DNA of 64,000 nt, from contig VFJW01000037.1 of NCBI GenBank assembly GCA_009885845.1, positions 1 through 64,000 on the forward strand, written 5' to 3'. Of this stretch, positions 3 to 36,825 are shown piece by piece. Position numbers and translations under genes: made by a program. The first letter of the stretch is position 1. Each line of letters starts with the position of its first letter. Below the pieces are notes generated by a model, which saw only the letters and a list, made by a program, of their open reading frames with translations, did no database searches and had not been told where the DNA came from. Origin of the DNA: Geobacter sp. (lineage in GTDB: Bacteria; Desulfobacterota; Desulfuromonadia; Geobacterales; Pseudopelobacteraceae).

Positions 3-344
3 GTGAGTTGTGCCGAGTGTCATGAGGATCAGCAAAAGGGAACCATGAAGGCGTTTGATGCCTTCAGCCACACACCATCGTTTGTCAAAAGCCATCGTTT
101 CTACGCGGCATCAGATGATCGGCTCTGCTCCACCTGTCACAGAGGCTCTTTCTGTACTGACTGCCATACCAACAAGGTTGAAACAAAACCGTCCACCATG
201 TACGGTAACCGGCCCGACCGGGAGATGCCGCACCGCGGGAACTTCATGACCATGCACAAGATCGAAGGCAAACTTGACCCGGCCAGTTGTTATCGCTGCC
301 ACGGCAGGACCAACAATGACCGCTGCGTGGCGTGTCACAGATAG
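3..344 (+). CDS. Multiheme c-type cytochrome, C-terminal part (5' end outside window)
   Basis: Five CxxCH motifs (CAECH, CSTCH, CTDCH, CYRCH, CVACH) in 113 aa; runs off the window start. Confidence 0.85.
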   Translation: MSCAECHEDQQKGTMKAFDAFSHTPSFVKSHRFYAASDDRLCSTCHRGSFCTDCHTNKVETKPSTMYGNRPDREMPHRGNFMTMHKIEGKLDPASCYRCHGRTNNDRCVACHR

Positions 345-355
345 GGGAGAAAGTT

Positions 356-3091
356 ATGATTCTAGTGAGAAACGGCATAATTCTGCTCATGATCATTAAT
401 CTGTGGGGATGCAGCAAAGCAAATGAAAGTACAGTTACGCTCGATGCAACGGGAAAGCATCCCGCAGGATGGGCGGTCGCCACAACCGGCGGTCTGCATC
501 CGGCGGCGTATCAGACCAATAAAAGCGCCTGTATTGAATGCCACGGCAGTGCTCTGGACCCTCAATCAACAGGCGGTGTCAGCGGCATCAGTTGTTTTAG
601 TGCATCCCGCAGCGGAATCGAGTGTCATCCTGGTGGTCCATCCAGCCATCCGGTCGGCTGGAGTTCCCCTGACAGTCACGGCAGCGCTGCTAAAGCTGAT
701 GCACCCGGCCTGAACTATTGTACACAATGTCATGGCACTAATTTTACGGGTGGTACCGGAAAATCCTGTATGACATGCCATACCACAGCACCACATCCGA
801 CGACCCCATGGAGAGGAACAACTGCGACAGGAACGACCCACACAACGACTGCTACCGCTAACGCATCCGAATGTGCCCGGTGTCACCTTAACAACCTGCG
901 ACTTACCGTCCCCCAAACAGTCCCGGCCGGTTCGACACCCGACTGTTTTAACAGTACAATGTGCCATGGGGTGAGAAGCGGTCATCCTGCCGGGTGGCTT
1001 GCCGCCGGCAGTCACGGCAGTGCCGCCAAAACGACGCCATCCGCATCACAAGGGTTTACGTACTGCACACAATGTCATGGGACCGCTTTTGCCGGCGGTA
1101 TTGGCCTTTCATGTATGACGGCGACGTGCCACACTCCCGCTCCTCACCCGGTGGCTGCAAATTGGCGTTCGATCGGCACGGTCACTCATACGAACACCGA
1201 CGTGAATAATGCCGGAGTATGCACCCAATGTCATAATGCCACCCTGAAGAACCTGGCACAGCCATATCTGGCACGATTTGTTCCTGCCGGATCTTTCGTA
1301 GCGGGAACAGCCGGATGTTTCAACGGCACGCTCTGCCATGCCAACATAATTGCATTGAACAACTGCACCGTCTGTCACGGACCTCTTTCCACCACCGTTT
1401 TTAACTCACTGGCCGGGGTTACCGCACCAAGTGACTCTAAAGTTGGTACCCATATAAAACACTTGAACGCATCAATTCAAGCGACCGCCTATTCGTCCAA
1501 CATTGCCTGTTTGGAGTGCCATACGGTACCCGGCTCATCGACAATCTCCGGATCACACAGAAACGGTGTGAATGACATCGTTTTCGGCACACTGGCAAAA
1601 ACCGGCTCCTTGACGCCCACATATACTGCAGCAACCGGTGTGTGTGCAAACACCTACTGCCACGGGACGACACTGACCGGCGGTGGCTCCAACAAAGCTC
1701 CTGTCTGGAACCAGGCAAATTATCTGGCCACCGGATGCGCCACCTGTCATGGCTTCCCCCCGACGACGGCCAGCAACGGAGCAGCCGTGCATCCGGCAGA
1801 CAATGCCTGTTCAGGATGCCATACCCATGTTAATGCAACCAACAATGGCTTTACGACGCCCGTTCTGCACATTGACGGCAAAGTTGATGTGGCCGCCGGT
1901 GGCGGCAGCTGTATCACGTGCCATGCCTCAATTCAAACCGGAACTCACGGCACACCTCGTGATGCTGTTACCACTGAATTCGGCCTTGCGTGGGGTCACA
2001 AGAAGGCTGGACGCGGTGCAGTAACAGATGCTGATTGCATTGTCTGCCATCTTGAGGGTGATTTTGCATCCCAGGCTCCATCGGCAAAACATAGAGACGG
2101 TAACATCGACCTCCGTGACCCGGATGGCGCCGGTGAGACACCCATTACCACTATTTCCGGCGGCGTATTTACCTTTACCAAATTTGCAACATCGTATGCT
2201 GCCGGAAGCAGGACTTCTACCGGTCATACATCCAATACTGACATAGCAAACGTCATCAGCCAGAAGTTCTGCCTGGCCTGCCACGATGGTACCGGGGCCA
2301 CTAACACAACTGCCCGTTCCAACAATGGTGGCACAGGTACCGCAGCTATGCCCTGGGGTGGCATAGCGCTTGGTGCCGGTTACGTGGCTGTTGCCGACGC
2401 CATCGGCACCCAGGGCCTGGTCGACGTCAGGAAGCAATTCACCACCACAAACTCGTCGGTCCATCCGGTCACGGGGCCGCGTAACAAGGACTTTCCAACT
2501 GCTGCAAGGATGGCTGATCCCTACAAGCCCACCGGATCGAGAGGGACGTCGGGAATAAAATCTGACAGTGTGGTCATGAATTGCTTTGACTGTCACAACG
2601 TGTCCGGTGCAAGCCCGCTCACAACTCGTACAACAGCGGCGCACGGCAATGCGGTAACCGTACGCGGAACTACCTATGCGGCTAATCCGACGCTCTGCCT
2701 TGCGTGTCATTTGACGTATAATGTGACTAATACTCAGTTTCACGGTGCTGGATCAGCGTGGTCAGCAACAGGATCAAGCCACGGTACGGGCGTCGTAGGA
2801 AATTGTCATTACTGTCATGGAAGCAATACCAATGCGACAAAACCGGCGCGGCCCAGACCCGCCCAGGATTACCATGGCAGCAATTCACTGTATGGCGGCG
2901 GCATGTGGCCTACTGTCGGTTCACGGCCCTATGCCTTTATCAGAGGTTGGAGCGGAACCGCTTATCACAGGCCGTTCAGGTCTTCTGAATTCACTGCCGG
3001 CAGTGCTACCTGCGGTACCGGAGCCTGTCCAGGTGGTGGTCAGGTAGGTGATGGCAGTACCCGGACCTACACGCCCGGCGGCTCGTTTTAA
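356..3091 (+). CDS. Large multiheme cytochrome lipoprotein, CxxxxCH/CxxCH-domain family (Geobacter type)
   Basis: Signal peptide with LWGC lipobox; about 20 heme-like motifs by eye, including CX2CH, CX4CH (CMTATCH, CANTYCH) and CX5CH (CFNSTMCH, CFNGTLCH); start placed at internal ATG of ORF 332..3091. Confidence 0.85.
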   Translation: MILVRNGIILLMIINLWGCSKANESTVTLDATGKHPAGWAVATTGGLHPAAYQTNKSACIECHGSALDPQSTGGVSGISCFSASRSGIECHPGGPSSHPVGWSSPDSHGSAAKADAPGLNYCTQCHGTNFTGGTGKSCMTCHTTAPHPTTPWRGTTATGTTHTTTATANASECARCHLNNLRLTVPQTVPAGSTPDCFNSTMCHGVRSGHPAGWLAAGSHGSAAKTTPSASQGFTYCTQCHGTAFAGGIGLSCMTATCHTPAPHPVAANWRSIGTVTHTNTDVNNAGVCTQCHNATLKNLAQPYLARFVPAGSFVAGTAGCFNGTLCHANIIALNNCTVCHGPLSTTVFNSLAGVTAPSDSKVGTHIKHLNASIQATAYSSNIACLECHTVPGSSTISGSHRNGVNDIVFGTLAKTGSLTPTYTAATGVCANTYCHGTTLTGGGSNKAPVWNQANYLATGCATCHGFPPTTASNGAAVHPADNACSGCHTHVNATNNGFTTPVLHIDGKVDVAAGGGSCITCHASIQTGTHGTPRDAVTTEFGLAWGHKKAGRGAVTDADCIVCHLEGDFASQAPSAKHRDGNIDLRDPDGAGETPITTISGGVFTFTKFATSYAAGSRTSTGHTSNTDIANVISQKFCLACHDGTGATNTTARSNNGGTGTAAMPWGGIALGAGYVAVADAIGTQGLVDVRKQFTTTNSSVHPVTGPRNKDFPTAARMADPYKPTGSRGTSGIKSDSVVMNCFDCHNVSGASPLTTRTTAAHGNAVTVRGTTYAANPTLCLACHLTYNVTNTQFHGAGSAWSATGSSHGTGVVGNCHYCHGSNTNATKPARPRPAQDYHGSNSLYGGGMWPTVGSRPYAFIRGWSGTAYHRPFRSSEFTAGSATCGTGACPGGGQVGDGSTRTYTPGGSF

Positions 3092-3298: not shown

Positions 3299-3330
3299 CT
3301 GGCCCTGCCTGAGAAGGCAGGGCCAGTTTT
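3299..3330 (+). terminator. Rho-independent terminator
   Basis: Perfect 12-bp stem CTGGCCCTGCCT-GAGA-AGGCAGGGCCAG followed by TTTTG. Confidence 0.85.
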
Positions 3331-4440
3331 GTTAATAGCAGATGAGGCTATAGTGCCGACTCACTCAGCGCGGCCGGGGGTTTATACCATTTCCTCACTG
3401 TCAACGGTCATCAATGCTCTCTTTGAAAGCGGCGGACCGTCAAAAACCGGTTCGATGCGCACCATCCAGATCAAGAGGCAAGGCAAAACAGTCGTCACGT
3501 TTGATCTCTATGATTTCTTGCTGCAGGGGGACAAAACCAGGGATCTTCGGCTCATGCCTGAGGATGTCATTTTCATTCCTCCGGTAGGGGCACTTGTGGG
3601 AATTGCGGGAAATGTACGGACACCCGCGATTTTTGAACTGACGGAGGAGACCAGACTCCTCGATCTTATCCGGATGTCAGGTGGTCTTACCGTCACGCAG
3701 GAAGGGCCGAAGACCGAGATGTTCCACATCGACCTCGCCAAAGCGGCGGCGGGTGACCTTCAGCACAATGTGATACTCCGGATGAACGATTATCTGCTGG
3801 TGCGGGCCGTCCCGAATGGAATCTGTACCGGACCGTTTCGCTTGCCGGCGAAGTCAGATACCCCGGAACCTACACCTTCAAGCTGGGAGAGACGCTTTCG
3901 TCTCTTATTGAACGGGCCGGCGGTTTTACCGCGCGGGCATACCTGCGCGGCACCATATTTACCCGCGAGAGAGTCCGGGAGCAGCAGCAGCGGCAGATAC
4001 TGGAAATGGCGGAACGGCTTGAGCGGGAACTGAACGCTTCCGGCTCAGCCCAGATTGCCACATCGTCAGGTCCGGACGATGCCCGGATGATCCAGTTGGA
4101 GCTGGAGCAGAAAAGGCAGTTTATCGGGCAGCTCAGGTCAGCCAGGGCCAAGGGGCGGATCGCTCTCAACGTCATGGAGCTGGCCGCTTTTCGAGGCAGC
4201 GCCTATGATATTGATCTGGAACAGGGTGATGTCATTACCGTGCCGTCAGACCCGAAAACCGTCCAGGTAATCGGATCGGTCTACAATCAGAGCGCCTTTG
4301 TGTCCGAGCAGGGAAAAACACATGACTACTATGTGAATCTTGCCGGCGGCTACACCACACATGCGGACAGGGACAACTCCTTCATTCTGCTGGCAAACGG
4401 CACCGCCGTCAACCTGGACCCCGCGAGACGCCGCCAGAGG
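3329..4440 (+). pseudogene. SLBB-domain polysaccharide export protein remnant (5'-truncated, frameshifted)
   Basis: SLBB-like repeats in ORF 3329..4033 continue in another frame (LYRTVSLAGEVRYPGTYTFKLGETLSSLIERAGGFTARAYLRGTIFTRERV...) into ORF 4006..4491; a single missing G near 3813 would explain the shift; no signal peptide or Poly_export domain. Confidence 0.75.
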
Positions 4441-4762
4441 ATGGTATTCCGTCGCGTCGTCCAGAGACGGTGGCAGGTTGATTGCGGCTGATTGCGCCGG
4501 GGGGATTTACACCTCTTCCGATTTCGGCATCACGTGGGCCACCGGACTTTCAGTCAGCGGCTGGGTCTCTGTTGCCTCGACCGGAGACGGGACCGGATTG
4601 TTCGCTCTTGCAGACAGCGGCGCCCGGTATCTATCCGCTGATTCCGGAGCAACCTGGACCGCAGACGGGTCAGACATCAGCTGGACATCCGTCGCTTCAT
4701 CGGCAGACGGCTCGCGACTGGTCGCCGCTGCAGATGGCAACAGGGTTTACACGCTGCAGTAA
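4425..4762 (+). pseudogene. BNR/Ycf48-like beta-propeller repeat fragment
   Basis: Repeats W.SVASS.DG.RL.AA..GG.IYTS.D.G.TW in ORF 4340..4762; joined out of frame to the SLBB remnant. Confidence 0.6.
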
Positions 4763-22674: not shown

Positions 22675-23970
22675 TCAGTGAGTAGATTCCTCTTTAAGAA
22701 AGGCAGGAATGAACATGTTGATGAAATAGAATAGCACGAACGGGGTTGCAATGACGGTGAGAGCACCGAAGAGCCCTTCTTTGAAGGTCTCAAGGTCATG
22801 CGGAATAATCGGCAGATGATAGTCCATGAAGCCTGAGAAGCTCAGAGAGAACGCCTGGCCGCCGATAACAACATTATAACGCATCATAAATACACCAAAC
22901 AGAACAAGCACGCAGGCGACGGTGGTACGCCGAACCGTACGCCCCGGCAGTGACATCATGATAAAGGGGAGTACATTACCGATGCCATACTGCAGAATGA
23001 ATATTTTGGTAAAGTCCCGCTCCATAATTACTTCACGGAGGATGTCCCATGATTTAACCTGGGTGTAGCCGCGGAAGATCAGGTCAAGTATTTCCAGTGT
23101 CATTGCGGCAATCATGAAATAGAGCAGGTAGTTGGAGGAGATCATCACCTCTGTATGTTTGGTTGCCTCCAGCTCTTCAGCATTCGGGGCGTCTGTGTCC
23201 GTCGCCCAGCGAGCCATTTTGCTTCTGGCCATATACTTACGGATTTCCTGAACGATTACATAGGTCAGGATACAGAGAGCAACTCCGGAAACTACTGCCG
23301 AACAGATGAAGATTACCGGCATAAGCGGAGTCATCCAGAGCGCATTGGCCTTGACTGACCCAAAAATGAACCCCGCATATCCGTGCAGGAAGCAGGCGAC
23401 GGGGATTCCTATTCCGGCCATGATTGTGCAGGCCTTGTGATCCTTTTCTACCGCCTCGGGGCTGATATCCCACGCGCCAAGAGTCATTGCCTGAAAGATC
23501 ATCATGCGTCCGTTGTCAATCATGCTGCGATTCTCCATCGCCATCAAACCCTGTGCCGTCTCGACGAAATATTTGCGGTACACCAGCCATATTTCGGTCG
23601 CAACAATCGCAGCGTACGTCAGAAAGACAATGCCGAAAGCCGAAATCGCGGAGGTAAAATGCGGCGTCATCAGGACATGGATACCTCGAAAAGGTTGCTG
23701 CAGATGCAGCATCAGGGGCATCATGGCTACCGGGAGCAGGGCGAACGAGAACACCAGGGAAAATCGGGCGATCTCCTTCAACTTTTCAATGCCAAAAACG
23801 TGGTAGAGAGATGAGAGTACAAAGGCACCGGCCACAAGACCGGTCATGAATGGATACATGACGATCTGGATCGACCAGTAGATGTACTCATTCGGCAATG
23901 TGAATAATTCCTTGATCGTCCATGCTTCGCCGTGAACTATCATAGCTTGTTGTGCGATTTGCTCTACCAT
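22675..23970 (-). CDS. NrfD/PsrC-type polytopic membrane subunit (copy 2)
   Basis: Multi-TM NrfD-like sequence adjacent to FeS subunit. Confidence 0.85.
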   Translation of the reverse strand: MVEQIAQQAMIVHGEAWTIKELFTLPNEYIYWSIQIVMYPFMTGLVAGAFVLSSLYHVFGIEKLKEIARFSLVFSFALLPVAMMPLMLHLQQPFRGIHVLMTPHFTSAISAFGIVFLTYAAIVATEIWLVYRKYFVETAQGLMAMENRSMIDNGRMMIFQAMTLGAWDISPEAVEKDHKACTIMAGIGIPVACFLHGYAGFIFGSVKANALWMTPLMPVIFICSAVVSGVALCILTYVIVQEIRKYMARSKMARWATDTDAPNAEELEATKHTEVMISSNYLLYFMIAAMTLEILDLIFRGYTQVKSWDILREVIMERDFTKIFILQYGIGNVLPFIMMSLPGRTVRRTTVACVLVLFGVFMMRYNVVIGGQAFSLSFSGFMDYHLPIIPHDLETFKEGLFGALTVIATPFVLFYFINMFIPAFLKEESTH

Positions 23971-23972
23971 GA

Positions 23973-24746
23973 CTAACGCACCTCCTGGGCAAGCCCGATA
24001 TAAAAGGCCTGGGGCTTGGTTCCGAATTCATCCTTCAATACACCGACCCGCTCATTCATGATGATCTTGGTGATTGGATCTTCCGGATCATGAATATTTC
24101 CCATTTTCCGGGCACCGAACGGGCAGGCATTGACACAGGCCGAATCCAGCCCCTTGCTGAGGCGGTGATAGCAGAAGGTACATTTGTCTACAACTTTGGC
24201 AATCGGGTGAAAAAAACGGGCTCCATATGGACATGCCATGATGCAATAGCCACAACCGATGCACCAGCTCCGGTCGACCAGAACAACCCCGTCGTCTGTT
24301 TTATAGGTAGCACCAACGGGGCAGACCTGCGTACAGGCCGGGGATGAACATTGATTGCACAGCTTGGGAACAAAAAATGCTTTCCCGACGTTTTTCGGAT
24401 CAATCTCCTTGAATTCACCACGTCCGAGATCGATGCGGGAATCTATGTATCCATAAAGCGCCGCTTTTGGACTGTCCACATACCGTTTGTCATCTTTCGT
24501 GTACACATATCGTTCTACCCAGGTACGCGAAACGTTGGCCTCGAACGGGATATCGTTTTCCGTCTTGCAAGCCTTGACGCAGAAGCCGCAGCCTACACAC
24601 TTGTTGGTATCAACCAGAAATGCCCACTGGATGTCCGGATTGGCGGCCAGCACCTTTTTCGGGTCGATCAGCGTCAAAGCTGAAACAGGCACAGAAGCAC
24701 CGGCTACAACCAGAATACATTTTTTCAGAAATTCTCGCCTCTCCAT
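23973..24746 (-). CDS. Periplasmic 4Fe-4S ferredoxin subunit, Tat signal (copy 2)
   Basis: ERREFLKK Tat motif; CVGCGFCVKAC, CNQCSSPACTQVCPVGA, CIGCGYCIMACPYGARFF. Confidence 0.9.
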   Translation of the reverse strand: MERREFLKKCILVVAGASVPVSALTLIDPKKVLAANPDIQWAFLVDTNKCVGCGFCVKACKTENDIPFEANVSRTWVERYVYTKDDKRYVDSPKAALYGYIDSRIDLGRGEFKEIDPKNVGKAFFVPKLCNQCSSPACTQVCPVGATYKTDDGVVLVDRSWCIGCGYCIMACPYGARFFHPIAKVVDKCTFCYHRLSKGLDSACVNACPFGARKMGNIHDPEDPITKIIMNERVGVLKDEFGTKPQAFYIGLAQEVR

Positions 24747-25237
24747 TATTTCATTCCCTCCATACTGGGATTATGCGGATTGTGGCATTTAACGCATTCC
24801 ACACCGGTATTGTGTGTTTTAGGATTGATGCCCGGGATACGATGCCGCTCGCTTGTTGTATAGGGGAGGTTCGTGTGACAGCGCAGGCAAAGCTCACGAC
24901 TGCGGTCAATGGTCAGTTTCTCCGGATTTTCGGGATGGTTCATCACCGGGCCATGACAATCTTCACACGGTATTATTCCGTGAAGCTTTTCAGTACGAAC
25001 CTTGACAACGGCACCATGGCATGCGCTGCAGTATTCATGCATTCTCTCACGGCCTGAAGTTCCGTATTTTGCCGGTTGATTCTTCCATTCCATTTCGTTT
25101 GACTTTCGGTGGTACGAGTACATGAAACCCCTTTTCCCCGAACCAAAGTCGTTAGGAACATAGAAGAAGCGAAACAACAGTAACGCTGCTACACAAGCAA
25201 TGACCACGTACAGTGGTCGCCAGACATGACTTTTCAC
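24746..25237 (-). CDS. Membrane-anchored tetraheme c-type cytochrome
   Basis: N-terminal TM; CSACH, CEDCH, CLRCH, CVKCH. Confidence 0.88.
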   Translation of the reverse strand: MKSHVWRPLYVVIACVAALLLFRFFYVPNDFGSGKRGFMYSYHRKSNEMEWKNQPAKYGTSGRERMHEYCSACHGAVVKVRTEKLHGIIPCEDCHGPVMNHPENPEKLTIDRSRELCLRCHTNLPYTTSERHRIPGINPKTHNTGVECVKCHNPHNPSMEGMK

Positions 25238-25367
25238 TCTCTCTCCCTCTTGCCATCATATTCAGTGGCTGCTGAAATTGCCTAAAATGAACCCTGATAA
25301 AAACTGCGGTGAAAAATAGAACGAGATTTGTATTTTTGTCAACAACTAATCCACATGCAGTCTCAAA

Positions 25368-26660
25368 TTACTTCGCCGGTTCGGATTCAGAGTTGATTGT
25401 ATCGGGTTGCTGAACCAGGAACAGCTGGTCGCCAATATAGGAAGTAACACCGTCATCGGCAACATGGAAATCTCCATTCATGATCGGTATGGCAACCCGT
25501 AGCAGCATGGTGAACACAAACAGTCCGGTGGCCCAGATGCCCATCGAGAGGAGCAGTTCGATACCAGATGGCGCGTATTCGTAAATCTCGTGCAGGACAT
25601 CAGGAATGAAGCCGGGAATTACCAGCCCCATTCCCTTCTCGATATACACTCCGATGAAAACCAGGATGCACCCCATTACCAGAGTAACATTGTTCCTGCG
25701 TGTAGCAGGATTCAGGAAGAGAACAAAAGCGATGACATTGAAGATCATTGCCGTCCAGATCCAGGGGACCAGTGCTGAATGGCCATGCAGGCCCTGGAAA
25801 AGATACTGCACAGGAGCAAGATGAACCGACCCGGTGTAATATTCCTTGAACAGTTCTGCGCCGAGCAGGAGCAGGTTGATGAAAATAGCGTACGCGATTA
25901 TTTCAGCTACCTTCTGAATAGCCTCATCCTCGATTTTGAATTTTGTGTATTTGCGCACCAGAAAGAAGATCAGGATCATGAAGGCCGGCCCGGAACAAAA
26001 TGCTGAAGCCAGAAAACGCGGTACCAGGATTGAAGAGTTCCAAAACGGGCGGGCTCCAAGTCCGTTGTAGAGAAAGGCCGTAATCGTGTGGATCGATATC
26101 GCCGAAGGAATCGAAAGCAGCAGCAGCGGTGTGGTGAATTTTTTGTTCGGTTCGCGCTTGTAGTATTTGTTGTAGAGAATAAACACCGCAACCGTGAGGT
26201 TTATCATCAAATAGGTATTAAGCACCACCACATCCCATGCCAGCAGCGACTGAGGAAAGTTGAGCAGACCTATTTTTGGAATCAGGTGCCAGAAACGCTC
26301 CGGCCTGCCGATGTCCACCGTAACAAACATGAGGCACATGACGATTGCCGACACTGCCAGCAACTCCCCAAGTACCGCTATCTCCTTGATCGGCTTCCAG
26401 TGGTAGACGTAGGCCGGTATTACCAGCAGAACTGCCGCCGCAGCGACCCCGACCAGGAATGTGAAGTTGGAGATGTAAAAGCCCCATGAGACCTGATCCC
26501 GCATAGAAGTGACGATAAGGCCTTCATTCAACTGCTGCACATACGCATATGCACCTATAGCCATCAAACTAAGCAGGAAAAGAACCCAGCAGTAGTAGGC
26601 CTTGCTCCCCTTGGAAATCAGAACCAGCGTGCCCATATAAAAGTGCCAGATGTTTTTCAT
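25368..26660 (-). CDS. NrfD/PsrC-type polytopic membrane subunit (copy 1)
   Basis: Multi-TM NrfD-like sequence next to FeS subunit. Confidence 0.87.
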   Translation of the reverse strand: MKNIWHFYMGTLVLISKGSKAYYCWVLFLLSLMAIGAYAYVQQLNEGLIVTSMRDQVSWGFYISNFTFLVGVAAAAVLLVIPAYVYHWKPIKEIAVLGELLAVSAIVMCLMFVTVDIGRPERFWHLIPKIGLLNFPQSLLAWDVVVLNTYLMINLTVAVFILYNKYYKREPNKKFTTPLLLLSIPSAISIHTITAFLYNGLGARPFWNSSILVPRFLASAFCSGPAFMILIFFLVRKYTKFKIEDEAIQKVAEIIAYAIFINLLLLGAELFKEYYTGSVHLAPVQYLFQGLHGHSALVPWIWTAMIFNVIAFVLFLNPATRRNNVTLVMGCILVFIGVYIEKGMGLVIPGFIPDVLHEIYEYAPSGIELLLSMGIWATGLFVFTMLLRVAIPIMNGDFHVADDGVTSYIGDQLFLVQQPDTINSESEPAK

Positions 26661-26758
26661 GGTTGCTCCCTGAATGCGAATTAGTAAGTTAGAAATTATT
26701 TTCTGTGGTTCTCTGGCAGAGAATAATTTAGTTAACGCACTTATCCAGTTTATCTGGG

Positions 26759-27685
26759 CTAGGTTGCGTAAAAATAGTAAAATTTAGGTTGCGTGTTAAG
26801 GTCTTCCTTGAAGATAAAAACCCGTTTGTTCTCGATCAGGTAGCGGATCTCGCTTTCCGGATCGAGCAGATTGCCGAACTTGCGGGCGCCGACCGGGCAG
26901 ACCTCTGCACAGGCGGGATAACGGCCCGGTTGTTCACGGGTTCGCTGAATGCAGAAGGTACATTTCTCCACAACCCCTTTCGGGCGGGGACGATTGCCGA
27001 GATAATGGGTGTTTGGATTAACCTCTTTGGCGGCAATCACCGGTTTGGCCCAGTTAAAGTGCCGTGCACCGTACGGACAGGCCGCCATGCAGTATCGGCA
27101 GCCGATACACCAGTTGTAATCGACAACGACAATTCCGTCGTTTTCTTTCCAGGTGGCCTGAACCGGACAGACTTTGGTGCAGGGAGGTTTCTCGCACTGC
27201 TGGCACTGAACGGGCATATAAAAATGCCCTTTTTCCGGAACGGTTGCCGGATTGTAGTAATGCTCCGCATGTGACAGGTCAATACCCTTTTCCTTATCAA
27301 GCTGCATGACGCGAATCCATTGAACTTGCGGAGTACGTGACTGGTTATTCTCCGTAACACAGGCATACACGCAACGACGACACCCGATACATCGCGACAG
27401 GTCAAGACCGTAGCCGTAGCGGACTCCTTCAATCGGCGGGGTTGTCTTGACGGTAATCTTTTTGTCGTACCGTGTGCTGTATTCCTTTTCCAGACGGGCG
27501 ATGACACCTTTGAGTTCATCCTTTGAAAGTTCACGAAAATGCTTCTGGAAAAACTCCTCCCAGACGGAAGCTGATGCGTCTCTGCCAGGCATCGCAATGA
27601 GGCCAATGCCAGCCGCCAGGCCTTTCAACATCTTACGACGAGACTTATGCAGAACGTGATCATCACATTTTTTTATATCTGACAT
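26759..27685 (-). CDS. Periplasmic 4Fe-4S ferredoxin subunit, Tat signal (copy 1)
   Basis: SRRKMLKG Tat motif; CIGCRRCVYAC, CQQCEKPPCTKVCPV, CIGCRYCMAACPYGARHF. Confidence 0.9.
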   Translation of the reverse strand: MSDIKKCDDHVLHKSRRKMLKGLAAGIGLIAMPGRDASASVWEEFFQKHFRELSKDELKGVIARLEKEYSTRYDKKITVKTTPPIEGVRYGYGLDLSRCIGCRRCVYACVTENNQSRTPQVQWIRVMQLDKEKGIDLSHAEHYYNPATVPEKGHFYMPVQCQQCEKPPCTKVCPVQATWKENDGIVVVDYNWCIGCRYCMAACPYGARHFNWAKPVIAAKEVNPNTHYLGNRPRPKGVVEKCTFCIQRTREQPGRYPACAEVCPVGARKFGNLLDPESEIRYLIENKRVFIFKEDLNTQPKFYYFYAT

Positions 27686-27721
27686 GAATCGTGCTCCCTG
27701 TGTACGAAATAGTTATCTGGT

Positions 27722-28339
27722 TCAGTGGCCGGCTTTCCCCGGTCTGTCCGGCGGCGGCATCGGCTTCAGCGCCTTAAACTTCGGATCGTGCGGATTATGG
27801 CAATGTACGCAGAGCAGATACTGCTTGTCTCCGTTCCAGTCACCGGTTCGCCTGCCGTGAACACCTACCTTCCAGTCACGGAACTTGTCGCCGTGGCACT
27901 GGCCGCAGAGCCGGAACGATTCGGTAAAATCAACAAGTTCACCGGAGACCAGCCGCAATTTGTCGCGATTCACCAGGTTATGGCAATCAGTACACCAGCG
28001 CTGACCTTCAGCATGATGAAGCACTATCTCGGTGTGGTATTCGGTTAGTGCCCGGGGCTTCGAATTGGGCTTCATGTATTTGTGGCACTGACTACAGGGA
28101 AAGGCTCCCTCTGTAAAGGGGGGTCGAGGAACCGCAAAGGTTTTTTCCTTTTGCCGATTTTTGATATCGTACGCAGGCTGCGGCTGCAGTTCCGCTGCAG
28201 ATTTCTCGGTGGTTATCAATTGCCCGGAGCGGTCAAATTCCTTAACCTTGGCGGCAAACACCGGTCCCACAGATAAAAACACTACTGACGCCATGGTGAG
28301 TAACACTATCTCGGGACGAGCAAAATACAGAATTTTCAT
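27722..28339 (-). CDS. Secreted tetraheme c-type cytochrome
   Basis: Signal peptide; CSQCH, CTDCH, CGQCH, CVHCH. Confidence 0.88.
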   Translation of the reverse strand: MKILYFARPEIVLLTMASVVFLSVGPVFAAKVKEFDRSGQLITTEKSAAELQPQPAYDIKNRQKEKTFAVPRPPFTEGAFPCSQCHKYMKPNSKPRALTEYHTEIVLHHAEGQRWCTDCHNLVNRDKLRLVSGELVDFTESFRLCGQCHGDKFRDWKVGVHGRRTGDWNGDKQYLLCVHCHNPHDPKFKALKPMPPPDRPGKAGH

Positions 28340-28530
28340 CTCAACCTCAATGTCGTGAAATAGGGTATTGTTTATCCGTTATATCGCCTTTGCATAAACT
28401 TAGTGATATGAAAGTACAGACAATTTGTCAATACAAAAACGCTTTATAAATAACATGGTTTTGACAGCAGATCTACCGATGGTAACTGCCGGCGGGCCAA
28501 GGTGTTTTGAACGCGTAATGTCAAACGACT

Positions 28531-28568
28531 AATTATCATTTGCATCAGTTGATTACCATTGCAAATAA
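28531..28568. promoter_or_regulatory. Possible Fur-type iron box region upstream of triheme cytochrome
   Basis: AATTATCATTTGCA and GATTACCATTGCAAATAA, two AT-rich half-site-like repeats. Confidence 0.3.
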
Positions 28569-28670
28569 CCTTATATGGAGTATATGAATGATGTCATATT
28601 GACTGTTGTGGTTTAGCAGGTAAATGGATATATACTGAGGTTGGAAATATAGCTCAAAAGGAGAACGCGT

Positions 28671-28991
28671 ATGATCAGGTTTGCAGCAGGCGTCGTTGCG
28701 GTATCAATGTTTGTTTTCCATGCAGTCCCTGTCCAGGCGATCCAACCGGGGAAAACTGTCACATGGGAAACACCCATGGGCAAAGTAGTCTTCGACGGTA
28801 AAAACCATGCAGACGCAAAGGTCGGATGCCTGGATTGTCATTCAAAAATATTCAAAATGAAGAAGGGTTCGACAAAGTTTACAATGGCGGACATAAATGC
28901 AGGGAAATTCTGCGGAAAATGCCACAACGGCACACGGGCATTTGCCACAAATGATAAGGACAATTGCGAAATCTGTCACAAAAAGAAGTAA
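28671..28991 (+). CDS. c7-type triheme cytochrome
   Basis: Signal peptide; CLDCH, CGKCH, CEICH; matches repeat unit of downstream dodecaheme protein. Confidence 0.88.
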   Translation: MIRFAAGVVAVSMFVFHAVPVQAIQPGKTVTWETPMGKVVFDGKNHADAKVGCLDCHSKIFKMKKGSTKFTMADINAGKFCGKCHNGTRAFATNDKDNCEICHKKK

Positions 28992-29072
28992 AACAGTGCT
29001 CTGGTTGTATACACTTGATACAGTCATATATGCCTGCCTGACTCGCATACAAGATCAAAAGATTTACCCTCC

Positions 29073-29102
29073 AGGGCAGCTCTCGTCGAGGCTGCCTTTT
29101 TT
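29073..29102 (+). terminator. Rho-independent terminator
   Basis: GGCAGC-TCTCGTCGAG-GCTGCC then TTTTTT. Confidence 0.7.
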
Positions 29103-29202
29103 GCGTGAGACTGCAGCATCAATTTACAATTGACGATTCCAATCCCGATATGTATAGTTTCCCGCTTGTATACGTTATTTTTTTAATCGAGGAGTCGGGG
29201 CA

Positions 29203-30228
29203 ATGCGAAAAATACTGGTACTTTCATCCCTCGTGCTTTTACTTCTGTCTGCTGTTGTTTGTGGGGCGGCCGAGTATAAGGATGTCACGTTTAGCTTTAA
29301 AAATGCCGGGCCGGTCGTATTCAACCATGAATTCCATCTTAAAAAATACAATAACAACTGTAAAGTCTGTCATGACGCGATCTACAGCCTGAAAAGCAAA
29401 AAACGCTTCACCATGGCCGAGATGGAAAAGACCAAATCATGCGGCGCGTGTCATAGCGGCGTAAAAGCATTCAGCGTTGCCACGGAAAAAGATTGTTCCC
29501 GTTGTCACAGCGGCAAACCACGCGATATTACCTACCAGATTAAAGGTCTCGGCATCTCGGTATTCAGCCACGCAACACACATAGCCAAAACCGGCGGCGC
29601 CTGTAGAGGATGTCACAACGGCATCGTCGTATCTGGCAAGGAAAAATCGGTGACTATGGCAGAAATGGAAAAAGGTCGCACCTGTGGGGCGTGCCATAAC
29701 GGAAAACGGGCTTTTGCGGTAACGGCCAACTGTGATCGCTGCCACAAGGGACTGAAACCAAAAGATATCACCTTCAACCTGAAAGGAGTTGCAGCGGCGA
29801 CGTTCAGTCATGAATTCCATACTCAGGCCTACAGCTGTAAAGATTGCCATACAAAAACATTCCCCTACAAAGTCGTTGTCGGCAAAGCCACCATGGATGA
29901 CATGGTCAAAGGTAAGTCCTGCGGCATCTGTCACAACGGAAAAGACGCCTTCGCATCTTCAGGAGATTGCGCGAAATGCCATAAAGGACTGAAACCTGCA
30001 ATTGTCACGTTCAAGACCGATGGCGGTGAAGCGGCATTCAGCCACGAATTCCATCTGCAGAGCTACAAATGTGTCGATTGCCACACCGGAATCTTCCCGT
30101 ACAAGGCCGGGGCACTGAAAGCCTCGATGAGTGACATGGAATCAGGGAAATCCTGCGGTGCCTGTCATAACAAAGGCAAGGATGCCTTCCCGGTACAGGG
30201 TGATTGCGGCAAGTGTCACAAGATGTAG
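29203..30228 (+). CDS. Dodecaheme cytochrome of four tandem c7-type (triheme) domains
   Basis: 12 CxxCH motifs in four repeats of about 75-80 aa; signal peptide. Confidence 0.92.
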   Translation: MRKILVLSSLVLLLLSAVVCGAAEYKDVTFSFKNAGPVVFNHEFHLKKYNNNCKVCHDAIYSLKSKKRFTMAEMEKTKSCGACHSGVKAFSVATEKDCSRCHSGKPRDITYQIKGLGISVFSHATHIAKTGGACRGCHNGIVVSGKEKSVTMAEMEKGRTCGACHNGKRAFAVTANCDRCHKGLKPKDITFNLKGVAAATFSHEFHTQAYSCKDCHTKTFPYKVVVGKATMDDMVKGKSCGICHNGKDAFASSGDCAKCHKGLKPAIVTFKTDGGEAAFSHEFHLQSYKCVDCHTGIFPYKAGALKASMSDMESGKSCGACHNKGKDAFPVQGDCGKCHKM

Positions 30229-30258
30229 ATCCAGAGGTGCGATTTTGTCATACTAACC

Positions 30259-30303
30259 CGGCAATCCGGGATGCATGTCAAGGGCGTCCGTCCCGGATTG
30301 CCG
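30259..30303 (+). terminator. Hairpin downstream of dodecaheme cytochrome
   Basis: CGGCAATCCGGGA ... TCCCGGATTGCCG, perfect 13-bp stem; weak T-tract. Confidence 0.45.
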
Positions 30304-30728
30304 ATGACCGTGCAATAATTGCTCACCGTATTTTCGCTGAAGCCTGACATATTGACTCTGCAATTACCCTCAACCATACGCCACTTGTTTCCGCGAACAT
30401 TCCGCCCGAGCAGTATCAAAAACTGCCTCCGGTCGTCATACCGATCTTTATCCCGCCGCAAAACCTATCCTGAATCAGTCTCCGACTCTTTACCTGTTAC
30501 AATCCTGAAAACGCAGTTTTCAACGCGTACCCGCGTGCCTTGATCGGCCCGCTGCCGCCTGCTGTCTGCACTTAGTGTATATGGCACAGTAATTCTCCGG
30601 GCAGCATGTACCAATGATGATACCTCCGGGAGTTTTTTTCGGGAGCTTCGTAGACAACTGTTTTTCCCGTGATATACTTTATTTACTGCACTGAATGTGC
30701 AGAAAACCACCGCAAAGGAGAGCTACAC

Positions 30729-30995
30729 ATGAAGAGAATTATCATCGCAGTATTGTCAGTAACAGTTTTTGCCGGGTCAGCACTTGCCGCTGACGTGATG
30801 GAGATGAAAAAAGGTGTGACCTTTAAACACAAAGCGCATGCCGAAGCGCTTAAGGACTGCACAAAGTGCCATGAGAAAGCCGAGGGGGGTAAAATTGAAG
30901 GTTTCGGCAAAGATCTGGCCCACAAAAAATGCAAGGATTGCCACAGTGAAATGAAAAAGGGGCCAACAAACTGTAAAGGATGCCATTCCAAGTAG
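30729..30995 (+). CDS. PpcA-family periplasmic triheme cytochrome c7
   Basis: GVTFKHKAHAEALKDCTKCHEKAEGGKIEGFGKDLAHKKCKDCHSEMKKGPTNCKGCHSK strongly resembles PpcA-type sequence. Confidence 0.93.
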   Translation: MKRIIIAVLSVTVFAGSALAADVMEMKKGVTFKHKAHAEALKDCTKCHEKAEGGKIEGFGKDLAHKKCKDCHSEMKKGPTNCKGCHSK

Positions 30996-31060
30996 CCTGG
31001 AAATCAGCTTCAAAGTTAGTATGTTCTATGGGAAACGCAAGTTAATCTAAGGGAATCAAA

Positions 31061-31093
31061 AAAAGGCGGCAGACTTTGCCTGCCGCCTTTTTT
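31061..31093 (+). terminator. Rho-independent terminator
   Basis: AAAAGGCGGCAG ... CTGCCGCCTTTT TTT. Confidence 0.8.
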
Positions 31094-31202
31094 TCATCCG
31101 GCCGGTTGTGCTTTTCCGTTTTACTGGTAGCATTGATAAAGTTAACATCACTTCAGCTGTGTATAGAATGTTGCCGGAATAAATATGCAGGGAGGATTAA
31201 TA

Positions 31203-33080
31203 ATGTACTTTCGCATCATAGTACTGTTGTTTCTGTTATCACTGTCTTCAACGCCGGTAACCGCCGAACAGGGGATGGCCATAGACCCGGCCACCTGCCT
31301 GGGATGCCACAGCAATAAATTTTCCATTCACAACTTCGCCGCATCCGTCCACGGAAAAAACGCCTGCACCAGCTGCCATGTGGACATTATCGATCTCCCG
31401 AAGCATATGAAAAAGGAGATCAAGGTTCAGAAGGTACAGTGCGAGCGCTGCCATAAAAAGCAAAACTCCGAGCACTATGCCAGTGTACATGCCGAAAAAG
31501 GTGTGACCTGCGCTCAATGCCACACCGATATCCATACTCATAATTACTGGAAAAACGACAAGCGCATCGCTGTTGCCAAATGCGTCCAATGTCATGACCA
31601 GGAAGCGGTCTACCAGAAATCCATCCACGGCAAGGCGGTTGCGGCCGGCAATAAGGATTCCGCCGCCTGCCATGACTGTCATAATCTCCACGCCATTGAA
31701 AAACTGGCTGGCGCAAATGATCATAAAGGTCGCGAATTTCACACTAAAGTCTGCATGAAGTGCCACAGCGACAGTGCGATGATGGCCAGGAACAAGGTCA
31801 CAAATGTCGCGGTTAAATCATACATGGAGAGTTATCACGGCAAGAACTACCGCCTTAACAGTCCTGAAAAAGTTGCCGGTTGTGCCGATTGCCACACGGC
31901 ACATTCGGTATTACCGAAATCTGATCCGCAATCCAGTATCAATCCGGCAAATATGGTCAAACAATGTGCTTCATGCCATCCTAATGCAACTCCACTCTTT
32001 GCAAAGTTTTATGCACACGGCGAGATGACAGACCGGCATAAATATCCGGTCCTGTACTACACGTTTATCGCAATGACCGGACTGCTCCTTTCCACGTTTG
32101 CGGTGTTCTGGATTCACACGCTGCTATGGATGTTCCGCGGTTTTGCCGAGAATCGGGAGAAAGCTGACAAACTGGCCGCTGGAACGCATCATCATGTGCA
32201 CGTTACTGATGCAGGCACACATATGCATGTCATTCCCGACGGTCACAAGCAGTATCGACGCTTCAACCGGCTACATATCTTCCTGCATATTCTGGTCATC
32301 ACCAGCTTCCTGCTGCTTTCGCTGACCGGCCTGCCGCTCAAATTCAGCGGGCAGCAGTGGGCTAACTTCATGATGCAGTTCTACGGCGGGGCTGCAAATG
32401 CCGCACTGCTGCATCGCATCGGTGCCGTAATCACCTTTATTTATTTCGGGTCTGCCATTGCAATGAGTATCCACTTTCTGTTTATTAGAAAGGATATCAA
32501 AGGCAATCCGCTGCAGCGACTGTTCGGCCCGGATTCTCTCTGTTTCAATCTGCGCGATATCAAAGATGTATTTTTTATGGTCAGATGGTTCTTCTTCAAG
32601 GGCCCAAAACCAACCTTTGAACGCTGGACCTACTGGGAAAAATTCGATTTCGTCGCGGTCTTCTGGGGTATGTTCGCCATCGGCGGATCCGGCCTGATGC
32701 TCTGGTTCCCGGAATTCTTCGGTATGTTCCTGCCCGGATGGGCGTTCAATGTCGCAACCATTGTCCATTCTGACGAAGCGCTCCTTGCTACCGGCTTCAT
32801 CTTCACCGTTCATTTCTTCAACACCCACGGACGACCGGAGAAGTTTCCGATGGATTTTGTTATCTTCAACGGGCAAATCTCCAAGGAAGAGATGATTGAT
32901 GAGCGCGGCGATCAGTGGAAACGCTACCAGGAGGAGGGAATAACCGAGCAGTTTGCCTGCAAAAAGACCAGCGGCATACTGTATGACTTCCTGTTCAAGG
33001 GTTTTGGATTTACCGCGCTTTTAATCGGACTTGGACTGATGGTGCTGATGATTCTTGCCTTTCTGAGCGGCGGACACTGA
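31203..33080 (+). CDS. CbcL-like inner-membrane cytochrome: nonaheme c-type domain fused to a cytochrome b (HydC/FdnI-type) membrane domain
   Basis: Nine CxxCH motifs (CLGCH, CTSCH, CERCH, CAQCH, CVQCH, CHDCH, CMKCH, CADCH, CASCH) followed by a multi-TM cytochrome b-like domain. Confidence 0.85.
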   Translation: MYFRIIVLLFLLSLSSTPVTAEQGMAIDPATCLGCHSNKFSIHNFAASVHGKNACTSCHVDIIDLPKHMKKEIKVQKVQCERCHKKQNSEHYASVHAEKGVTCAQCHTDIHTHNYWKNDKRIAVAKCVQCHDQEAVYQKSIHGKAVAAGNKDSAACHDCHNLHAIEKLAGANDHKGREFHTKVCMKCHSDSAMMARNKVTNVAVKSYMESYHGKNYRLNSPEKVAGCADCHTAHSVLPKSDPQSSINPANMVKQCASCHPNATPLFAKFYAHGEMTDRHKYPVLYYTFIAMTGLLLSTFAVFWIHTLLWMFRGFAENREKADKLAAGTHHHVHVTDAGTHMHVIPDGHKQYRRFNRLHIFLHILVITSFLLLSLTGLPLKFSGQQWANFMMQFYGGAANAALLHRIGAVITFIYFGSAIAMSIHFLFIRKDIKGNPLQRLFGPDSLCFNLRDIKDVFFMVRWFFFKGPKPTFERWTYWEKFDFVAVFWGMFAIGGSGLMLWFPEFFGMFLPGWAFNVATIVHSDEALLATGFIFTVHFFNTHGRPEKFPMDFVIFNGQISKEEMIDERGDQWKRYQEEGITEQFACKKTSGILYDFLFKGFGFTALLIGLGLMVLMILAFLSGGH

Positions 33081-35289: not shown

Positions 35290-36825
35290 ATGGAACCCGT
35301 AAAAAAAATAAGTGCTGAAAAATACTACATGAACATCATCAGCTTACTGGGAATGCTCCTCTCTGCAATCTCAGGAATTGTCATAGTTCTGTTCCTCGCT
35401 TTGCAGGCGTTTAGAGGGTTTGAAAACCCGTACCTGGAAATAGTGACGTTTTTTGTTTTGCCTATGGGAGTATTATCCGGCGGCGTGCTAACCTACTTTG
35501 GTGCATGGCGCACCCGGAGCAAGCATCGCAGAAACCCCAATGTTGATCTTCCTCCGCTCCCTCGTCTCGACTTCAATGATCCGGACAAACTGCGCCTTGC
35601 TGGCTTTTTTGCCCTGGTAACCGTTGTGTTTTTCGCTATTATCGGAGTTGCAACAATCAAGGGGTTCGAATTTTCCGAATCAACCGCGTTCTGCGGTGAA
35701 GTCTGTCATGTGCCTATGGAGCCGGAACACACCGCCTGGGAACAATCACCTCACGCACGCGTACGCTGCGTCGAGTGTCATGTCGGTTCAGGACTTGATT
35801 ACTACGTCAAAGCCAAAATCAACGGAACCAGGCAGCTCTATTCCGTCCTGACTGGCACGTTCCCGACACCGATTCCAACCCCGGTTCACAACCTCCGCCC
35901 GGCACGAGGTACCTGCGAGCGCTGCCACTGGCCGGAAAAATTCATCTCGGCACGCCATAAATACATTTCTCATAACGCCCCCAACGAGACAAACACTCGT
36001 CGCGATATGCAGCTGCTGATCAAAATAGGCGGGACTCCGGGGGCTCCAAACAGTTCCGGTATCCACTGGCACATCGGCAAGGAAGTTGCCTATATCGCCA
36101 CGGACGAAAAACGGATGGAAATCCCCTATATTTCGGTCAAGAGAAATGACGGCAGTATCGATGAATTCGTCAACGTAGAAAAACCGGTATCAAAAGAGGA
36201 ATTGGCGAAACATGAAAAACGTGTCATGGACTGTATCGATTGTCACAACCGGCCGGCTCACTCATATAACCCCCCAAGCGATGAGCTGGATCACGCCTTT
36301 ACTGCAGGTAAGCTTGACCCATCCCTGCCGTTTGTGAAGAAACTTGCCGTTGAACTGCTGGAGCAGCCGTACAAGAGCAAGGAGGAAGCAACTGCGGCGA
36401 TTAACAAAGGAATTAACGAATATTATGCCAAAAACTACCCCGCCCTGGTCAAAACCAAGGACGCATCGATCAAACAGGCGGTTGAAGAGATTCAGCGCAT
36501 CTACGGCAGAAACTTTTTCCCCAAGATGAAAGTCGTCTGGAGCGCCTATCCGTCACATATGGGACACTTCTACTTCCCCGGATGTTTCCGCTGTCACGAC
36601 GGAAAGCATAAGAATGCCGCCGGCAAGCTTATTTCCAAGGATTGCAACCTGTGCCACATTGTTCTCAGCCAGACACAGGAGAATATCCCCAAAGGCACCC
36701 AGGTAAAAGATTTCGTACACCCGGTTGATATTGGCAACGAACTGACGAAAATGAACTGCAGTGATTGCCACGCCCCTGGCGGCCATGATGTTACCGGCGG
36801 AGAAGACGCGAAAAAGAAACACTAA
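35290..36825 (+). CDS. ImcH-like NapC/NirT-type heptaheme cytochrome
   Basis: N-terminal TMs; AFCGEVCHVPMEPE, CVECH, CERCH, CIDCH, CFRCH, CNLCH, CSDCH. Confidence 0.82.
   Translation: MEPVKKISAEKYYMNIISLLGMLLSAISGIVIVLFLALQAFRGFENPYLEIVTFFVLPMGVLSGGVLTYFGAWRTRSKHRRNPNVDLPPLPRLDFNDPDKLRLAGFFALVTVVFFAIIGVATIKGFEFSESTAFCGEVCHVPMEPEHTAWEQSPHARVRCVECHVGSGLDYYVKAKINGTRQLYSVLTGTFPTPIPTPVHNLRPARGTCERCHWPEKFISARHKYISHNAPNETNTRRDMQLLIKIGGTPGAPNSSGIHWHIGKEVAYIATDEKRMEIPYISVKRNDGSIDEFVNVEKPVSKEELAKHEKRVMDCIDCHNRPAHSYNPPSDELDHAFTAGKLDPSLPFVKKLAVELLEQPYKSKEEATAAINKGINEYYAKNYPALVKTKDASIKQAVEEIQRIYGRNFFPKMKVVWSAYPSHMGHFYFPGCFRCHDGKHKNAAGKLISKDCNLCHIVLSQTQENIPKGTQVKDFVHPVDIGNELTKMNCSDCHAPGGHDVTGGEDAKKKH

Follow-up and report, generated by a model that had tools for sequence, protein, structure and literature searches.

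Conserved stretched heme motifs at the second sites of diheme units in a putative porin-cytochrome conduit lipoprotein of Geobacter sp.

The window analyzed here is a stretch of 64,000 nucleotides from a Geobacter sp. contig (VFJW01000037.1, assembly GCA_009885845.1). Near its start, it encodes a multiheme cytochrome in which several heme-binding motifs depart from CX2CH, raising the question of whether motifs with additional residues between the two cysteines still hold heme or are sites in the process of being lost. All of the motifs quoted in an earlier note on this gene, CX9CH (CFSASRSGIECH), CFNSTMCH, CFNGTLCH, CMTCH, and CMTATCH, are present in the open reading frame (ORF) at positions 356 to 3091. 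The ORF starts with an ATG at 356 behind GGGGAGA, 11 nt past the stop codon of a pentaheme cytochrome gene, and ends with a stop codon at 3091. The tally of sites in its 911-aa product is 16 CX2CH, 2 CX4CH, 2 CX5CH, and 1 CX9CH. The features of the locus are as follows.

3 to 344, plus strand: pentaheme lipoprotein cytochrome, the conduit partner; C-terminal part with 5 CX2CH, truncated where the contig starts at base 1
356 to 3091, plus strand: multiheme outer-membrane lipoprotein cytochrome, 911 aa, 21 CXnCH (predicted)
356 to 412, plus strand: signal peptide and lipobox LWGC, mature N terminus at Cys19 (from the sequence; lipobox Cys invariant in homologs)
530 to 544, plus strand: site 1, CX2CH (CIECH)
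593 to 628, plus strand: site 2, CX9CH (CFSASRSGIECH), stretched; both Cys invariant, n = 9 in 39/51 homologs
719 to 733, plus strand: site 3, CX2CH (CTQCH)
767 to 781, plus strand: site 4, CX2CH (CMTCH); CX5CH or longer there in other homologs
872 to 886, plus strand: site 5, CX2CH (CARCH)
944 to 967, plus strand: site 6, CX5CH (CFNSTMCH), stretched; n = 5 in 39/51 homologs
1064 to 1078, plus strand: site 7, CX2CH (CTQCH)
1112 to 1132, plus strand: site 8, CX4CH (CMTATCH), stretched; an in-frame insertion of 6 nt distinguishes it from CMTCH
1220 to 1234, plus strand: site 9, CX2CH (CTQCH)
1316 to 1339, plus strand: site 10, CX5CH (CFNGTLCH), stretched
1556 to 1798, plus strand: GSu_C4xC__C2xCH domain (TIGR01904, aa 401 to 481) with CANTYCH (CX4CH) and CATCH; 47.9 bits against a cut-off of 27
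1643 to 1663, plus strand: CANTYCH (CX4CH)
1907 to 3088, plus strand: C-terminal domain (aa 518 to 911), common to giant cytochromes of other clusters, including a paralog in the same genome on contig C157
3011 to 3031, plus strand: C-terminal Cys pair CGTGACP (C886, C891), conserved without a His; probable disulfide

The ORF product is very probably a multiheme lipoprotein of a porin-cytochrome conduit in which five second sites hold heme c via both cysteines with bis-His coordination, for a total of up to 21 hemes. Both a lipoprotein signal (LWGC, with its invariant Cys) and many CX2CH motifs (16) are present, as in Pcc outer-membrane c-cytochromes. Pfam and NCBIfam matches are limited to general multiheme families and TIGR01904, the Pfam counterpart of which (PF09698) falls just below its cut-off (20.9 versus 21.7). 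Whereas residues 401 to 481 score above the TIGR01904 cut-off, the diheme repeats of the N terminus with their CX5CH and CX9CH motifs lie outside this model. As the earlier note had observed, the differing motifs occupy equivalent positions of N-terminal repeats (aa 77 to 193 and 194 to 317 have 62 residues in common over 109 aligned).

The N-terminal part has homologs in 17 genera of the class (48 of 277 genomes). Because genomes assembled independently show the same pattern, chance and an assembly artefact can be ruled out. In an alignment of 16 homologs, all 20 motif cysteines of the ten N-terminal sites are 100% conserved, those of the CX9CH, CX5CH, and CX4CH motifs included, and the mean identity of the remaining columns is 46%. 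This is the opposite of the lack of conservation that the earlier note had named as evidence against its reading of the CX5CH and CX9CH sites. Mature residues 1 to 310 contain exactly 10 motifs and 10 non-motif His, and all of these His are invariant in the 16 homologs. In a larger set of 43 sequences, every Cys and motif His of sites 1 to 5 is kept and the matching distal His is found in 41 to 43 of the 43; two of the few exceptions are proteins whose repeats end there.

The 54 homologs together contain 695 CX2CH and 334 CXnCH motifs (n = 1 to 17), so that about a third (334/1029) are non-canonical. There are no orphan CH pairs lacking an upstream Cys of their own in the 54 homologs, with all 334 non-canonical sites covered. 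Unpaired Cys are also nearly absent, the exceptions being the lipobox Cys and a few that lie at frame edges or toward the C terminus. CX14CH is among the spacings found in these homologs, and three of them (L130, L131, and L135) carry a contracted CX1CH motif (CSCH); CKCH in Kuenenia is a similar contracted motif, mentioned as reported in a passage of PMC7096707.

The N-terminal parts can be written as a string in which h is a distal His, c is CX2CH, and N is a stretched site, giving hhcN hhcc hhcN hhcN and so on. Read from these strings, the repeat is a diheme unit: two distal His, a CX2CH, and then a second site that is either CX2CH or stretched. The second sites of the N-terminal units in the 911-aa protein are CX9CH, CX2CH, CX5CH, CX4CH, and CX5CH. 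Two distal His are found in 169 of 198 units with a stretched second site and in 48 of 64 with a canonical one, the remainder having 3 or 4. Stretched sites are direct neighbors in only 1 of 975 pairs in the homologs, against 94 expected, and the remaining multiheme ORFs at these loci give 3 of 736, against 40 expected. Within the first ten sites, 181 of 191 non-canonical ones are at even positions, where shuffles average half, and all 10 odd-position exceptions are CX4CH. None of these counts represents independent events, given the common ancestry of the homologs and the origin of repeats by duplication, but the homologs nonetheless show 25 distinct spacing patterns.

The earlier note had described the spacing as drifting. 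The spacings do differ between repeats; however, they are position-specific (n = 9 at site 2 and n = 5 at site 6, each in 39 of the 51 homologs), and "drift" is thus too loose a word. Departure from CX2CH and differing spacing at equivalent positions are nevertheless compatible with decay, in which the module loses its hemes singly, one of the two options in that note, and the C-terminal CX4C represents the last stage. The homologs make this very unlikely. None of the 334 non-canonical sites is half-lost or without its upstream Cys, the cysteines and distal His are invariant, position largely sets the spacing, and the C-terminal pair is kept without a His in all aligned homologs. Gain and loss of hemes proceed instead by whole units; for example, one homolog (L033) lacks an entire 4-heme block.

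That the stretched sites are heme-free, with Cys pairs serving as structural disulfides and an incidental CH, can scarcely be credited. Disulfides could form between cysteines spaced as C-X5-C or C-X9-C, as is probable for the C-terminal pair, but the second Cys is followed by an invariant His, a diheme unit has two distal His whether its second site is canonical or stretched, and plain CX2CH is found at the same positions in other repeats and homologs. Furthermore, a regression of non-motif His on site number gives 1.10 per canonical site and 1.19 (95% interval, 0.84 to 1.68) per non-canonical site, a slope that should be near 0 if stretched sites were heme-free. An arrangement that would leave the His coordination and count the same is a single thioether to the CH cysteine, with the upstream Cys otherwise used, e.g., in a disulfide or metal site. 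We consider this improbable, as the upstream Cys matches the other cysteines in its invariance and the hemes of OmcZ, including that at its CX14CH, are all attached by thioethers. In addition, the number of stretched sites is odd (5, 7, or 9) in many homologs, so that mutual pairing of upstream cysteines would leave one Cys unpaired.

Attachment of heme by both cysteines of the stretched sites is most likely because their Cys and His are invariant, each site has its own upstream Cys and an equal share of distal His, the sites fit the diheme unit, and stretched sites avoid one another as neighbors. The motif conservation, 1:1 His stoichiometry, alternation, and absence of orphan CH are seen in the sequences, and we infer covalent attachment, a surface location, and electron transfer to outside acceptors. 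In the proposed mechanism, the protein would be an outer-membrane, probably surface-exposed lipoprotein of a porin-cytochrome conduit. Each of its N-terminal diheme units would consist of two distal His, a canonical CX2CH, and a CXnCH as the second site, and the residues added between the cysteines would loop out beside a heme that is kept, as for the CX14CH of OmcZ. AlphaFold models of the N-terminal module are weak (pLDDT of 41 with 16 sequences and 62 with 43), and a Foldseek search of these models against the PDB gave no fold match.

The C-terminal CGTGACP had been read as a CX4CH that lost its His. The homologs contradict this: in all that align over the tail, there is a conserved Cys pair with variable spacing that is never followed by a His. 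It is not a lost heme site, and a disulfide is more probable. One of the cytochromes on C157 shares the C-terminal two thirds of the 911-aa protein at 64% identity. The protein thus looks modular, combining N-terminal repeats of the conduit type with a C-terminal domain of giant cytochromes.

In relatives, the operon order is a porin-like protein of ~437 aa, the pentaheme lipoprotein, complete at 158 aa and directly upstream of the multiheme gene, and the multiheme lipoprotein third. The truncated pentaheme gene adjoins the multiheme gene here as well, and the porin would fall beyond the contig start. An operon in another genome (L076) is suggested by its gene order and sizes to be omb-oma-omc. 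Its porin and that of a relative have 27% identity (E = 1e-13), and its octaheme and the relative's pentaheme have 35% identity over 94 residues. By these matches, the porin is similar to an OmbB-like porin and the pentaheme to an OmaB-like cytochrome, and the ORF fits a porin-cytochrome conduit. This likeness to the OmbB-OmaB-OmcB conduit of G. sulfurreducens is partial, in that the smaller cytochrome here is a pentaheme and not an octaheme and the large cytochrome is from another family.

A second, nearly identical pentaheme gene is found in the same genome on C157, followed by different cytochromes. Two near-identical pentaheme genes, at 1 to 344 of the window and 1 to 344 of L005, both begin at contig ends. 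The probable explanation is a conduit duplication at which the assembly broke, the copies being followed by different large cytochromes. Elsewhere in the window, positions 22675 to 33080 encode inner-membrane electron-transfer proteins (NrfD, FeS, multiheme cytochromes, and a CbcL-like protein), so that several parts of an extracellular respiration route are present in the window, and an ImcH-like inner-membrane cytochrome with a CX3CH (CGEVCH) beside a membrane segment is encoded at 35290 to 36825. An SLBB-domain gene of the polysaccharide export type (3329 to 4491) is apparently split over two frames and is probably a frameshifted remnant.

If the stretched sites bind heme, the CcsB/CcsA lyases of the organism must accept variable Cys-Cys spacing. 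The suggestion in the earlier note that lyase tolerance is broader than assumed gains sequence support from the invariant first cysteines, the 1:1 distal His, and the complete absence of orphan CH. The genome has five CcsA-type (PF01578) matches and three ResB-type proteins, consistent with System II, whose lyases would be the ones that tolerate this variation. A dedicated lyase, which CX15CH requires in Wolinella (PMC6976685), was considered for the multiheme gene. No CcsA or ResB gene was found on its contig (C64), which is cut just upstream of the gene; both points tell against the proposed mechanism. A ResB gene does adjoin the paralog cluster on C157 and related giant-cytochrome clusters at other loci. 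ResB-like genes are found beside giant CX4CH-rich cytochrome clusters at L005 (15669 to 16823) and in L006, L008, L009, and L011 to L016, and in L013 and L016 a gene of ~280 aa just downstream is CcsA-like by eye. It is possible that these genes encode a dedicated lyase for the giant cytochromes beside them.

CX5CH and CX9CH are non-standard, as had been noted, but motifs of this kind are already known: in 2014, Shi and colleagues reported atypical CX3-15CH motifs in GSU2724 and other outer-membrane cytochromes of porin-cytochrome systems, and stated that heme binding by CX>4CH remained to be determined (PMC4245776). In OmcZ, a CX14CH has since been seen in a solved structure to hold heme, with the added residues forming a loop (PMC9473688). 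The Pcc cytochromes of Geobacter (GSU2724 ExtG/OmcV and Gura_1837) are alike by description, being multiheme proteins with atypical CX3-15CH motifs whose genes lie together with those for a porin and a smaller cytochrome; in contrast to these, the protein here has 21 sites and the C-terminal domain of giant cytochromes. It shares with the nanowire cytochrome OmcZ a non-canonical site, and the features of such a heme c site (both Cys and the His conserved, a distal His available) are found here. PDB sequence searches (up to E = 10) returned no OmcZ chain; the best profile match was the 16-heme cytochrome 1z1n (E = 2e-4), from which we draw no inference. The sulfite reductases MccA and SirA also have a long-spaced motif (CX15CH or CX12NKGCH), but theirs is one special site with a dedicated lyase, whereas here there are many stretched sites per protein. 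Literature searches under the spellings CX5CH, CX9CH, and the like returned nothing relevant. Within the searchable literature, the comparative evidence and the diheme-unit rule appear to be new.

Heme numbers in Geobacter conduits are usually counted from CXXCH alone. In the family of this ORF, such counts would miss about a third of the sites. The comparative evidence answers the question posed in 2014 about CX>4CH as far as sequence can, and the diheme-unit rule offers a simple predictor of heme number, distal ligands, and module boundaries. The rule also prompts one to ask how substrates are read by CcsBA lyases. A tentative extension, which we regard as possible but doubtful, is a positional rule for the Geobacterales by which the first site of His-His-CX2CH-CXnCH is obligatorily CX2CH and the second tolerates roughly 2 to 17 inter-Cys residues, since System II maturation or heme-pair packing would fix the geometry of the first heme only. 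If this rule is true, the variable loops beside every second heme would provide a surface able to evolve for the docking of acceptors or partners.
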